From Microscillaceae bacterium (GTDB taxonomy: Bacteria; Bacteroidota; Bacteroidia; Cytophagales; Microscillaceae), in assembly GCA_025054775.1 (NCBI GenBank), contig JANWZA010000027.1, positions 1-64,000 of the forward strand: a stretch of DNA of 64,000 bases, read 5' to 3'. The notes under the pieces were generated by a model. It made no database searches. It was not told the DNA's origin and saw only the letters and a program-made list of their open reading frames with translations. This document shows, piece by piece, positions 2,390 through 53,348 of this stretch; within the stretch, counting starts at the first letter, position 1, and the number at the start of each line of letters is the position of its first letter. The position numbers were made by a program, and so were the translations under genes.

Positions 2390-3241
2390 CTAATACTCCC
2401 ACAAATTGTGTTCATATTCCATAAGATCATATTCAATCTTTTGGGACATATATAATACCTTTTTAGGTACATCAGGATGCGTACCATATTCATCTGTTAC
2501 AATTTCTTGAATTGACTTATCATCAGGATTAGATACCTTGGTAATACGTGAAGAAAATAAGCGTAAATCAAAGGCATCAGCTAAAGACATGTGGCGACGT
2601 GGGTTTTCAGGATTATACCAAAAAGCCCTCACATCTTCAATAGTTCCTTTCTTTTCAGACTCACGATAGGTCTCTGTAAAATAAGCATGTAATTCCTTGA
2701 AGCTAAATGAAGCCAAACGCACAGCACCCATTTGCGTATCGTCATTTGTTCCCTGAGGCACTACTATTGTAATTACTTGGATGTCCCAATACATTCTTGA
2801 CCTACGTCTATCAAAAATAAGGTCTTCTTTCATTTCTAACAAAAACAATTGAGTAGGCTTCAATTCTACACTATCACCCACCTGCGAATCATAGTATTTC
2901 AATTTACTTACAAACTCCGCGTGTGGCATAGGATCCGTTAAGCCATTATTTGTAGGCGAAATAGTGTAACGATAAGGCTGAATTTTTTTGGCTTTCACCG
3001 CTTCAATGATTACTCTTGTTATTTCATTTTCAGCAGAAAAGAAAGGCTTATTTTGCTTCTCCAGTAGGTTAATTTGACGTGTAACCGTTGTACGGTACAT
3101 AATATCTGACTCTAAAATAGGTCTTACTGAGTTAGGATTGTATCCCATAGGACCGAATTGAGCCAGTACTTCTTGCCCAACAAACAAGTACAAAGCTATT
3201 AAAGGTAATAGCCCAACAATTTTTTTTACACTTCTTTTCAT
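2390..3241 (-). CDS. gldN: Gliding motility / type IX secretion protein GldN (PorN)
   Basis: GldN (PorN in Porphyromonas) forms the periplasmic ring of the T9SS together with the lipoprotein GldK. The 283-residue protein has a signal peptide ending near LAQ (about 28). A GldN-like body follows, with LESDIMYRTTVTRQINLLEKQNKPFF split over residues 43-68 and a MYWDIQVIT block near 155. It is the last gene of the porP-gldK-gldL-gldM-gldN cluster, 120 bases after gldM, and ends at the shared hairpin with fabH. The identification rests on sequence resemblance and on gene order, which agree. Confidence 0.9.
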   Translation of the reverse strand: MKRSVKKIVGLLPLIALYLFVGQEVLAQFGPMGYNPNSVRPILESDIMYRTTVTRQINLLEKQNKPFFSAENEITRVIIEAVKAKKIQPYRYTISPTNNGLTDPMPHAEFVSKLKYYDSQVGDSVELKPTQLFLLEMKEDLIFDRRRSRMYWDIQVITIVVPQGTNDDTQMGAVRLASFSFKELHAYFTETYRESEKKGTIEDVRAFWYNPENPRRHMSLADAFDLRLFSSRITKVSNPDDKSIQEIVTDEYGTHPDVPKKVLYMSQKIEYDLMEYEHNLWEY

Positions 3242-23706: not shown

Positions 23707-24051
23707 TTACTTCACACTCTCTACCACTGCCTTAAAGGCTTCGGGGTGGTTCATAGCTAAATCCGCTAATACTTTGCGATTAAGTTGTATGTTGTTCTTA
23801 TGAATCTTATCCATAAACACAGAATAAGACATTCCGTGCAAACGTGCCGCTGCGTTAATACGTTGTATCCAAAGTTTGCGGAAGTTACGTTTTCTAGTTT
23901 TGCGATCGCGGTAGGCATATAACAGGGCTTTTTCCACGGCATTTTTGGCAACAGTCCAAACATTTTTGCGCCTACCAAAATAACCTTTAGCTAGCTTTAA
24001 GATTTTTTTGCGTCTAGCTCTTGAAGCAACAGAATTGACTGAGCGTGGCAT
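23707..24051 (-). CDS. rplT: 50S ribosomal protein L20
   Basis: L20 binds 23S rRNA early in large-subunit assembly and in many bacteria represses its own operon by binding the mRNA leader. The 114-residue protein is Arg/Lys-rich. It shows the standard sequence [34 protein letters not shown] and [15 protein letters not shown]. It lies downstream of rpmI with a 136-base gap containing several mutually exclusive hairpins. The gene order rpmI-rplT is conserved, but the usual infC is missing upstream. Confidence 0.98.
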
Positions 24052-24068
24052 ATTTTTACTTCTTTTTT

Positions 24069-24112
24069 AAGAGTTATGGCGGTTAGATCCTAACTCTTTT
24101 AGCACATAACTC
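24069..24112 (-). promoter_or_regulatory. Alternative hairpins in the rpmI-rplT gap
   Basis: Three pairings compete for the same bases. aagagtta (24069-24076) pairs with taactctt (24091-24098). gagttatg (24071-24078) pairs with cataactc (24105-24112). gttag (24082-24086) pairs with ctaac (24090-24094). On the minus strand the shared arm ends 17 bases before the rplT ATG. A switch-like control by L20 is an inference from the structure and from known L20 autoregulation. Confidence 0.5.
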
Positions 24113-24187
24113 GGTGAAACAATAGATTTAAGAATAAATTTAATTTATGTTTGTATTTTTTAGCTTTTGTATAATTATTTCAAAACC

Positions 24188-24382
24188 TTAAATTTTGAGC
24201 ATAAATTTAACATTTCTCATGTCCGCATCACTTACTAAGGTATATTGACCTAAGCGACGCTTGCGATCGGTTGCTTTTTTTGTAAGAATGTGCCTTTTAT
24301 TAGAGCGTTTTCGTTTTATTTTGCCCGAGGCAGTAATCTTAAAACGCTTAACAGCACTGGAATTAGGTTTCACTCGGCCCAT
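24188..24382 (-). CDS. rpmI: 50S ribosomal protein L35
   Basis: L35 is a small basic protein of the large ribosomal subunit. The 64-residue product begins MGRVKPNSSAVKRFKITASG and continues KIKRKRSNKRHILTKK, the standard L35 signature. It ends with a KFML block. A complete -33/-7 promoter lies 63 bases upstream, so rpmI-rplT is transcribed without infC, which is normally the first gene of this operon. The upstream neighbour is an unrelated phosphatase gene. Confidence 0.97.
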   Translation of the reverse strand: MGRVKPNSSAVKRFKITASGKIKRKRSNKRHILTKKATDRKRRLGQYTLVSDADMRNVKFMLKI

Positions 24383-24444
24383 GATGAGGTAAAAAAATTA
24401 TACAAGATTTCTGAACTTTTAGCTATTTTAATTTTTTAGGATTG

Positions 24445-24475
24445 CAAAGTTAGAACTTTTCTATTGGATAGCCAA
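24445..24475 (-). promoter_or_regulatory. Promoter of rpmI-rplT
   Basis: On the minus strand TTG (24475-24473) and TAACTTTG (24452-24445) are separated by 20 bases, a full match to the Bacteroidota -33/-7 promoter. The -7 element ends 62 bases before the rpmI ATG. Confidence 0.7.
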
Positions 24476-24513
24476 ATTATTAGTAAACTATTTTTAGTAT
24501 TTGTTGATTTTTT

Positions 24514-24547
24514 TTTTTGCATAGTATAAGTTTTTGCATAGTATAAG
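24514..24547. repeat. Perfect tandem duplication, 2 x 17 bp
   Basis: The unit tttttgcatagtataag occurs twice in direct succession (24514-24530 and 24531-24547), in the gap between rpmI and the SpoIIE-type phosphatase gene. Confidence 0.9.
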
Positions 24548-24628
24548 TATTTGACTGAATAGCATACCAACCCTATTTAGGAGACCTATATGACGAAGAT
24601 AATACTTTTGCTACAAATTGGTATAACC

Positions 24629-25390
24629 TTATAGTTGAATAAACAAAAAGGTAATATCATCTCTTTGGGGGCTTTCCTCGCAAATTTGTTGCTGAAGATC
24701 AGTTTCTAAAAGATTTTTTTGCTCTTCAAGGGGTGTAGCTATATGGTTTTGTAAAAAATCAATCAGGCGTTTAGTACCATATTTTTTGTGGTCTTTACTG
24801 GGTTGGTCAGTAAAGCCATCAGAAAAGAGGTAAATTCTATCGTTGGTTGTAAGGTGAACTACCTCGTTATGAAAAGGCTTTTCGTTATAGATGCTCCATC
24901 TTTGATACCCTCCTATGGAGCATCGGTTGCCTTTGAGTTGTTTCAATTCTTGGTTCTTTGTATAGTAAAGAGGTCTTTTAGCTCCTGCAAAGGTTACTTT
25001 CCTGCTGCATAGGTCCTCTTGTTCAATTACACACAGGGCTATGTCCATGCCATCGTTATTACGTCCTTTCTCTTGGTTTAATGCAGTTACAATTTCTAAA
25101 TGTAAAATTTCTAAAATATCAGCAGGCTCGTGAATTTTTTTTTCATTTACAATTTCATTCAAAAGGGTATGCCCAATCATGCTCATAAAAGCTCCTGAAA
25201 CTCCATGTCCTGTACAATCTACTACAGCAGTAATACACTTATTGTCTCCTCCCCAAAACCAGTAAAAATCTCCTGATACCTCGTGGAGAGGTTTGTAAAT
25301 AATTTGTACATCGGTAAAATAAAGTTTCATGAAGTTGAGATCGGGTAGAATAGCTGACTGCACTTTTTGAGCATACCGAAGTCCATCCAT
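24629..25390 (-). CDS. SpoIIE-type PP2C phosphatase domain (3' part of a frameshifted gene)
   Basis: This reading frame encodes a PPM/PP2C-like Ser/Thr phosphatase domain of the SpoIIE/RsbU type, which typically dephosphorylates STAS-domain proteins. It shows DGLRYAQKVQSAILP (linker), EVSGDFYWFW (metal Asp), VVDCTGHGVSGAFMSMIG (metal Asp and GHG) and DDITFLFIQL at the end, so the catalytic core is complete. The ATG at 25390 is internal: the same frame continues upstream as NEKIERKQRIL, the normal linker after a HAMP domain. The true 5' part is in the -1 frame at 25429-26538. One base missing in an A6 run at 25422-25427 explains the split. Confidence 0.85.
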   Translation of the reverse strand: MDGLRYAQKVQSAILPDLNFMKLYFTDVQIIYKPLHEVSGDFYWFWGGDNKCITAVVDCTGHGVSGAFMSMIGHTLLNEIVNEKKIHEPADILEILHLEIVTALNQEKGRNNDGMDIALCVIEQEDLCSRKVTFAGAKRPLYYTKNQELKQLKGNRCSIGGYQRWSIYNEKPFHNEVVHLTTNDRIYLFSDGFTDQPSKDHKKYGTKRLIDFLQNHIATPLEEQKNLLETDLQQQICEESPQRDDITFLFIQL

Positions 25391-26538
25391 AAGGATACGT
25401 TGTTTTCGCTCAATTTTTTCATTTTTTCTCTAATTTCCTGTAAGCTACTCTTTACTTTACTATACATAAAGAAAAAATCTTTGGAGAGTTTACCGATTTC
25501 ATCATTAGTGCGAATATTCTTGAACTCTACCTCGTCAGAAAAATTACTTTCAATTACTTGATGAATAGACTTTGAGAGTTCGCTGATAGGTTGGCTGAGA
25601 GCTTTGGTAATGTAAAAGGCTAAAAACGAAATAATTGTAATGTAAATAATCAGAATAACGAGGAGTGTAGTAAAGATTTGGCGGGGTAAGATTTTAATTT
25701 GACTCTCTATTTTCTCTCTTATGGCATTATTTTGTTTATCAATGAGTTGTGAAAGGTCAGAAAGTTCTTTTTTTAGCCCGTACTTATGACTTACTCCAAT
25801 TTTGATGTCTATTTCCGCAAACTTTTGGAAGGTATTAGCATATTCTATCAAAATCTTAGTCTGTTCTTCTTTGATTGGGGGAGGCAAATTTTGTTGCTCA
25901 ATTTCTTTAAGCAACTTGCTTACAACTTGTGCATGTTTTTGAAGATAACTTTTTTCTTTTCGGATAATGAAGTCTTTTTCGTGTCTGCGTAGCATTAGGA
26001 CTTGAGCTAAATTTATGACGGGTTTGTATTCCTCTAATTGGTGAATAGCTTTTCGCATAGTACCTTCTAATCCATAGCCCTTAAAGCCTTTTTTTCTTAC
26101 GTTTTGTACAATCTCCTCAAATTTTTTTTGATAGGCTTCGATAATCTGTCTTAGGATTATGAGTTCTTTTGCCACACCAAAATTTTCAATTTCCTTGCTT
26201 GAAAGCAAAAAGTTAAAATCTTCTTCAATTTTTTCTACTAGTTTTTTCCTTTGTGAAAGCGTTTGACTCAATCCTGTTTCAAAAAAGGTAGTGTTAATGG
26301 CATCTTCTACAAAAAAATCTGCCTCTAACTTCCGCATGAACTGAAGTTGCAAAGAGGTAGTGATAAAGCGATTAGCTACCTTTTCTACCATATCTTGCCT
26401 TGTTTCAAACCAAAACGTAATGACTACTATAAGGCAAGTAAGAAATAAGAAGATAAAAAAGGAGAAAAGGAGTTTAGCTTTGAGAGAGCGAAAGTTTTTG
26501 AGTATGTTATGCAGTAGTTTCACAATGTGAAAATACAT
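25327..26538 (-). CDS. Sensor part with HAMP domain (5' part of the frameshifted SpoIIE-type phosphatase gene)
   Basis: This frame encodes a membrane sensor. It has an N-terminal helix (LLFSFFIFLFLTCLIVVIT, about 23-41), a helical extracytoplasmic domain (about 45-285) and a second helix (TLLVILIIYITIISFLAFYI, about 290-309). A HAMP linker (about 312-365, SQPISELSKSIHQVIES ... TNDEIGKLSKDF) follows. After the codons for QEIREK the frame reads MKKLSENNVSLWMD, which is nonsense compared with the family, until a stop at 25327. A one-base shift restores NEKIERKQRIL and the phosphatase domain. An in-frame TTG at 26541 precedes the chosen ATG. It overlaps the downstream frame by 64 bases. Confidence 0.8.
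   Translation of the reverse strand: MYFHIVKLLHNILKNFRSLKAKLLFSFFIFLFLTCLIVVITFWFETRQDMVEKVANRFITTSLQLQFMRKLEADFFVEDAINTTFFETGLSQTLSQRKKLVEKIEEDFNFLLSSKEIENFGVAKELIILRQIIEAYQKKFEEIVQNVRKKGFKGYGLEGTMRKAIHQLEEYKPVINLAQVLMLRRHEKDFIIRKEKSYLQKHAQVVSKLLKEIEQQNLPPPIKEEQTKILIEYANTFQKFAEIDIKIGVSHKYGLKKELSDLSQLIDKQNNAIREKIESQIKILPRQIFTTLLVILIIYITIISFLAFYITKALSQPISELSKSIHQVIESNFSDEVEFKNIRTNDEIGKLSKDFFFMYSKVKSSLQEIREKMKKLSENNVSLWMDFGMLKKCSQLFYPISTS
25422..25427 (-). other. Frameshift point in a 6-A run
   Basis: On the minus strand the run GAAAAAATG leaves the HAMP frame and needs one more A (or a -1 slip) to continue into the phosphatase frame. A second A6 run lies at 25414-25419. Confidence 0.8.
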
Positions 26539-26612
26539 CAATTTTTAGGCTATAAGGGTAGTTTTTATGTTAATTTTGAGTTAAATTATACTTTATATTT
26601 TGTAAAAAAATG

Positions 26613-52829: not shown

Positions 52830-53348
52830 TTATCTTTTTCTCCAACCTATGAAAATACCTTTACTATAATCTATCATAACAGGTATACCGTCAGGGGCAG
52901 TTAAGAAATCTACAGAGCTATAATAACTATTAAACACATTTTCAATTCTTTGAACAAATGTATAATTGTTTAGGTTATACACAATCAAATCTTGCTGGTT
53001 ATCCAAATACATCATATTATTTTTGATAGCAATATCTTTATTGCCTTTAATTTCAATAAAACCAATTTGGATAGGTTGGCTAGGGTTGCGGTTATCAATG
53101 ACGTGAATACCCTCGTTCTCCTCACCAATAAAAATAAAGTGATTATAGGTGTAAATTTTACCTGTTTTTCTTAAAGGGCGTGCAGGCTTCAAACCATTAA
53201 TGTTTTGATCGATTTCCTGCCTTGAAGCATAAATTGGTTCATACTTACTATCTTTGAAAAATGGGAATTGCGGGTAAAACAAAGCCAAATTGAGTAGCAT
53301 AACCACTAAAAGCAATGCTAAACTCCAAGTCTTGGTAGTAGATTGCAT
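52830..53348 (-). CDS. LVIVD-repeat membrane-anchored protein (N-terminal half of a split beta-propeller protein)
   Basis: From the ATG at 53348 this 172-residue protein has an N-terminal membrane anchor (LALLLVVMLLNLALFYPQF, about 10-28). After it come YASRQEIDQNINGLKPARPL and LVIVD-type repeats: KIYTYNHFIFIGEENEGIHV, IDNRNPSQPIQIGFIEIKGN and MMYLDNQQDLIVYNL. It ends IPVMIDYSKGIFIGWRKR, the point at which one-piece homologues run on into a second half. The companion gene follows 83 bases downstream. Function is unknown; both products face the periplasm or cell surface. Confidence 0.78.
   Translation of the reverse strand: MQSTTKTWSLALLLVVMLLNLALFYPQFPFFKDSKYEPIYASRQEIDQNINGLKPARPLRKTGKIYTYNHFIFIGEENEGIHVIDNRNPSQPIQIGFIEIKGNKDIAIKNNMMYLDNQQDLIVYNLNNYTFVQRIENVFNSYYSSVDFLTAPDGIPVMIDYSKGIFIGWRKR

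Follow-up and report, generated by a model that had tools for sequence, protein, structure and literature searches.

The two overlapping reading frames that meet near position 25421 of the window (the whole stretch of 64,000 nucleotides from a Microscillaceae bacterium analysed here) are confirmed as parts of one SiaA-like gene, a sensor frame and a phosphatase frame broken apart by a one-base shift. A previous reading made from the letters alone, hereafter the sequence-only reading, had described a single SpoIIE-type phosphatase gene whose linker carries a one-base shift that splits it, and this description is borne out both by a coding HMM that puts the joint at 25421 and by relatives in which the two parts are fused. 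We consider it probable that the break is a recent, true loss of one base in the linker, and that the loss is tolerated. A true recent mutation is favoured, with an isolated error as the next choice, and we lean this way because the sample's other split genes belong mainly to dispensable classes.

Both frames are encoded on the minus strand of the window, as an ORF of 404 codons (25327–26541) and an ORF of 253 codons (24629–25390) that lie in different frames and share an overlapping region. The open frame of the N-terminal part (25428–26541) encodes a membrane sensor module whose end is HAMP-like, and two transmembrane stretches can be recognized in it by eye. This frame reads as far as KSSLQEIREK, and what follows REK is an out-of-frame nonsense tail (25327–25427) whose stop codon ends at 25327. 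The phosphatase frame is open back to a TAG codon, just past which it starts with thirteen linker codons (25391–25429), RKNEKIERKQRIL, before reaching its first ATG and continuing as MDGLRYAQ. From this ATG the C-terminal part (24629–25390) encodes 253 amino acids with a full-length SpoIIE/PP2C phosphatase domain, which is matched by PF07228 over profile positions 2–190 of 192 (E = 2e-22, 80.5 bits against a gathering score of 25) and by PDB entry 6k4e over residues 2–250, almost the whole domain (E = 1.7e-31). The entry gives its molecule name as “putative serine phosphatase”, and in view of the NCBIfam match we take it to be SiaA. Phosphatases of the SpoIIE/PP2C type carry the acidic metal-binding motifs GDFYW, D..GHG, SDGF, and DDIT, and these are present in the C-terminal half, where they align with 6k4e and with the relatives. 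The upstream frame had been called HAMP-containing in the sequence-only reading. HAMP-bearing NCBIfam models (kinases and SiaA) agree with this at residues about 287–378 of the N-terminal part, but the Pfam HAMP model (PF00672) gives no match in the window's own protein at E up to 1; among ten aligned members of the family nine are matched by the Pfam model, the sole miss being the window's protein. The phosphatase half is located 246 bases upstream of rpmI, which is followed by rplT (23707–25390 for the whole arrangement, minus strand), the two genes (L35 and L20) being presumed from their sequences. A match to the Bacteroidota-type promoter pattern, TTTG-N15-20-TANNTTTG, lies ahead of rpmI at 24445–24476.

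The frame change was called by a seven-state coding HMM that was trained on long ORFs of the same genome, was given a costly frame-change transition, and was run unguided. At the strict setting only one frame change was reported across all 64 kb, at 25421, and thus the shift goes beyond a chance reading. A second call in the window, at 52844, appears at lower cost (−13 and −16) and looks like an ordinary gene junction. There are two A6 runs on the minus strand, two bases apart from each other, at 25422–25427 and 25414–25419. The sequence-only reading had placed the shift in the first of them, and this placement is favoured by the HMM joint and by the linkers of relatives, although the upstream frame extends 94 nt beyond the joint and the reading frame alone would allow a shift anywhere within 25330–25432, the second A6 run included. 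Of the two, the first run seems the better fit: with the shift placed there, the residues that follow would match the E or D found in several relatives.

Relatives of the sensor part were found in 36 of the 57 genomes searched (own genome counted), and in the other genomes the top 20 matches all lie in open frames of at least 619 codons. In the named collection at least 463 stretches encode a relative, and the best 80 of these were used for comparison; the closest among them are Microscillaceae MAGs, while the best locus of Raineya orbicola (L144) has 32% identity to the sensor part. Beyond the sensor match, the frame stays open for 184 or more further codons in 78 of these 80, and in the other two (L156 and L171) it ends after 38 and 71. 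Sensor and PP2C share a frame in 21 of the 80 by a strict motif count, which demands a helix of the Y-A-x-x-I-Q-x-A-I-L type and a GDF motif and requires one frame by definition. Judging from their linkers, many other named relatives probably have a different C-terminal part, for example a histidine kinase. By our own count the linker has the same length as in the window in eleven of the 21 (L109–L115, L117, L119, L121, and L138), as illustrated by L109, SLNEIKDKSEKVERKHRILMEG, and L121, SISEIREKSDKIALNHQILMDG, each in one open frame. Sensor-HAMP-SpoIIE proteins of Microscillaceae and other Cytophagales (L109, L111, L112, L121, and others) therefore have the same sensor module, linker, and phosphatase domain as the window gene, and they differ from it in their uninterrupted frame, whose length in those eleven is about 620–670 codons. 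The sequence-only reading had stated that its interpretation would be refuted by close relatives in which the two parts form separate genes, and when relatives were compared on this point, those examined carried both parts fused; none was found among them with the sensor part and the PP2C part as separate genes. A two-gene organization is rejected on these grounds. The case rests on the named set and not on a loose search for the linker motif, which returned no motif in relatives L017, L023–L026, and L028, nor in paralogue L034, and hit a wrong place in L010.

Conservation was assessed by comparing the window's protein with ten PP2C-fused relatives, the N-terminal and C-terminal halves being treated separately. 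The window's protein keeps 34 of 34 invariant columns in the N-terminal half and 34 of 35 in the C-terminal half, and these counts are no worse than those of each other member left out in turn. Its identity to the others is 29–39% in the N-terminal half, against 24–55% among the others, and 41–51% in the C-terminal half, against 36–70%. Neither half has decayed and the one-base shift is the only lesion, in agreement with the original description of both halves as otherwise intact and conserved.

If the break is a recent true loss, one base would have disappeared between the HAMP-like segment and the phosphatase, probably in the A6 run at 25422–25427, through ordinary replication slippage, and so recently that neither half has had time to decay. 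The full-length protein would then no longer be produced at normal levels; the N-terminal part would be produced with its nonsense tail, and production of the phosphatase would depend on a translation start at the internal ATG (25390). Several points count against a recent loss, namely that the lack of a second lesion and of any drop in conservation is also expected from a plain consensus error, that the shift site is a homopolymer and thus a common place for errors, and that a slightly raised error rate is possible in this genome, with 5 HMM calls at −18 in 464 kb (own sample with the window) vs. 2 and 3 in 400 kb each of two relatives. The gene may accordingly be whole in the organism and broken only by an isolated sequencing or assembly error, which we regard as rather unlikely. 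The full conservation of both halves and the homopolymer at the break fit such an error, and similar breaks are seen in the low-coverage MAG of a relative (G010, coverage ~3), in which several paralogues are split, some of them in the sensor part, so that likely-error breaks do occur in this gene family. The expectation given in a study of 1106 genomes is that a singleton frameshift validated by homology reflects a sequencing error and not a true indel (PMC3711429). The frameshifted singletons of that study, by Antonov et al. (2013), resemble the window gene in their one-off frame transition, in having homology on both sides, and in that no relatives sharing the transition were found, and they show no evident difference from it.

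Against an error stands the general behavior of homopolymers in this assembly (3,014,431 bp in 65 contigs). On the coding strand of sampled genes there are 606 A6, 244 A7, 66 A8, and 12 A9 runs, and HMM-coding frames (395,078 coding bases) contain 322 A-runs and 129 T-runs of 7–9 nucleotides; hundreds of runs longer than the one at the break are therefore read through within coding frames. Six paralogues in the same genome (L035, L038, L040, L042, L045, and L047, the last beginning at a contig end) have an A7 or A8 run in the linker and still an open frame. A generally error-prone assembly is unsupported, and a homopolymer-blind one is unlikely in view of the long runs and of these six paralogues. 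At −24 the HMM made 1 call in the own 400 kb sample and 0 and 1 in those of the two relatives (G049 and G005), plus 1 in the window, and at −13 it made 12 in the own sample with the window and 9 and 14 in the two relatives. One-base deletions spiked into the own sample were recovered in 20 of 60 cases at −24, 33 of 60 at −18, and 55 of 60 at −13.

The remaining point against random error is the kind of gene that is split. A survey of 884 kb of the genome, the window included, was run at −16, a setting that lies between those covered by the sensitivity figures, and yielded 15 calls, which by our own reading comprise 7 split-gene calls in 6 genes (the window's included) and 8 ordinary junctions. 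A seventh split gene, an Uma2 gene at an A9 run, was called only at −13. Besides the window's gene, the split genes are thus Uma2, Cas9, a Por_Secre_tail protein, two DNA methylases, and a short methylase-like remnant, with no evident housekeeping gene among the six; these assignments were made partly by our own reading, and L208 as the second DNA methylase and L218 as the methylase-like remnant are presumed from features of their sequences. Random errors would strike housekeeping genes too, whereas the split genes of the sample belong mainly to dispensable classes; since they are mostly restriction, CRISPR, and surface genes, they resemble real decay more than random error. As for the individual loci, the Cas9-type gene (L222:4795–8132, G000:C6, plus strand) is split in two frames near an A10 run, with Cas9_a in the first part and HNH_4 and RuvC_III in the second. 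The gene for the Por_Secre_tail surface protein (L062:1–4838, G000:C34, plus strand) is split at 3076, and 1.6 kb past this split, also in L062, lies the Uma2-like gene with its split at the A9 run and a possible further shift near its start. The DNA methylase genes with frame changes are found at L215:6027–7598 (G000:C23), with two shifts, and at L208:12325–13717 (G000:C65).

The sequence-only reading had listed error, recent loss, and slippage as options. The first two stand, and slippage finds no support in a run of only six A's with neither a heptamer nor a downstream structure. Under slippage, whether programmed or adventitious, a transcriptional event on the A6 run or a ribosomal −1 event would yield a useful amount of full-length protein, and we judge this extremely unlikely. 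The frame relation is indeed correct for a −1 shift or for one extra transcribed A, and both halves are conserved. However, the standard slippery heptamer has the form X-XXY-YYZ, to which the A-GAA-AAA suggested for a ribosomal −1 shift does not conform, and inspection of the site revealed no such heptamer. Downstream RNA folding, assessed for structures without pseudoknots, is no better than that of shuffled sequences (z = 0.70, with 144 of 200 shuffles folding at least as well), and the relatives give no sign of sharing the break, 78 of the 80 best named ones passing this point in frame. Neither the shared break in orthologues nor the stimulatory structure of a programmed frameshift is seen. 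The runs at the site are only A6, of which the sampled genes hold 606 in addition to the 322 longer A-runs. According to a study of 108 genomes, selection against slippage is visible at about nine A/T in a large proportion of them, and shorter runs may slip in some bacteria (PMC1088944). The two A6 runs of the window fall short of the length of about nine A/T that applies in many genomes. Programmed slippage is rejected as unlikely in the light of run length, A-run counts, downstream folding, and relatives.

Alternatively, translation from the internal ATG (25390) could give a free-standing, soluble phosphatase that has been uncoupled from its membrane sensor, a change that would be seen twice in this genome; we find this improbable. 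What speaks for it is a second SpoIIE gene (L197:2159–3597, G000:C18, minus strand), in which a one-base shift near L197:3069 seems to separate the phosphatase from a membrane part; the direction of the shift and its place in the domain order are those of the window's gene, and an ATG stands at the equivalent residue (MDSIAYA). The phosphatase domains of both genes look whole. The L197 split was called by the HMM at −18 and is absent at −24; two weak relatives of its membrane part, at 22 and 27% identity, continue in one frame into a helical linker and, it seems, a histidine kinase. We therefore hold the L197 split to be plausible, less sure than that of the window. Two split SpoIIE genes compare with about 0.5 expected at the sample's rough rate in roughly 64 kb of SpoIIE genes (29 genes at about 2.2 kb each, a guess), an excess that is only mildly high and suggestive only. 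Several observations argue against an uncoupled phosphatase. There is no exact match to the TTTG-N15-20-TANNTTTG pattern ahead of the ATG at 25390, and an independent promoter for the C-terminal half is rejected accordingly; this single pattern is a weak one, with 9 hits vs. 4.75 expected by chance. The upstream ORF ends 64 nt beyond this ATG, which is a poor arrangement for coupling, and the linker codons preceding the ATG have been kept, which points to recency and not to fission. Among the matches listed, the SpoIIE frames shorter than 350 codons other than the window's either lie at contig ends (G000:C58, G010:C60, G002:C65, and G001:C216) or, as in G010:C70 of the low-coverage MAG, are broken inside the domain. 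Recurrent uncoupling of SpoIIE phosphatases from their sensors is hence possible but weak, and in its strongest form, in which one-base losses in the linker have severed at least two SpoIIE PP2C domains from their sensors, leaving them to work as free phosphatases that start from an ATG at the same residue, we hold it to be decidedly improbable. If it were true, it would be an example of evolution by deleting the sensor input rather than the enzyme, and if both breaks were real and selected, they would offer a modest but testable instance of a signalling enzyme released from sensor control.

Returning to a recent and tolerated loss as the favoured explanation, the background in which it would have occurred is a large PP2C partner-switch repertoire, as the 3.0 Mb genome contains 29 SpoIIE, 11 SiaC, and 9 DUF6272 domains, the last of which we take to be of the SiaB type. 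The SiaC and DUF6272 domains were counted genome-wide, irrespective of any pairing with the window gene. The window gene resembles SiaA (NF038263, 6k4e) in having a HAMP-like segment followed by a PP2C/SpoIIE phosphatase domain, and its halves match successive stretches of the SiaA model, 308–392 for the N-terminal half and 413–654 for the C-terminal half (E = 3.8e-49). It differs from SiaA in that the sensor part has no match to the model and the gene is split, and the halves score 27.2 and 167.8 bits against a cut-off of 700, placing it outside the SiaA equivalog. A literature search on split SpoIIE/HAMP genes and on SiaABC in Bacteroidetes, at the level of titles and the beginnings of abstracts, returned nothing relevant. 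In the SiaABCD pathway, to which SiaA belongs, the phosphatase acts on a SiaC-type protein and is opposed by a SiaB-type kinase (PMC7647112). By analogy the target of the window's phosphatase may be a SiaC-type protein, and in the whole gene the sensor would govern the phosphatase acting on it, with a SiaB-type kinase in opposition. The loss is probably tolerated because the genome has 29 SpoIIE domains. The finding is mostly a point of annotation: an entry as one frameshifted sensor-phosphatase suits the locus better than one as two genes or as a candidate for recoding, and the window gene is an ordinary frameshifted member of a large paralogous family.
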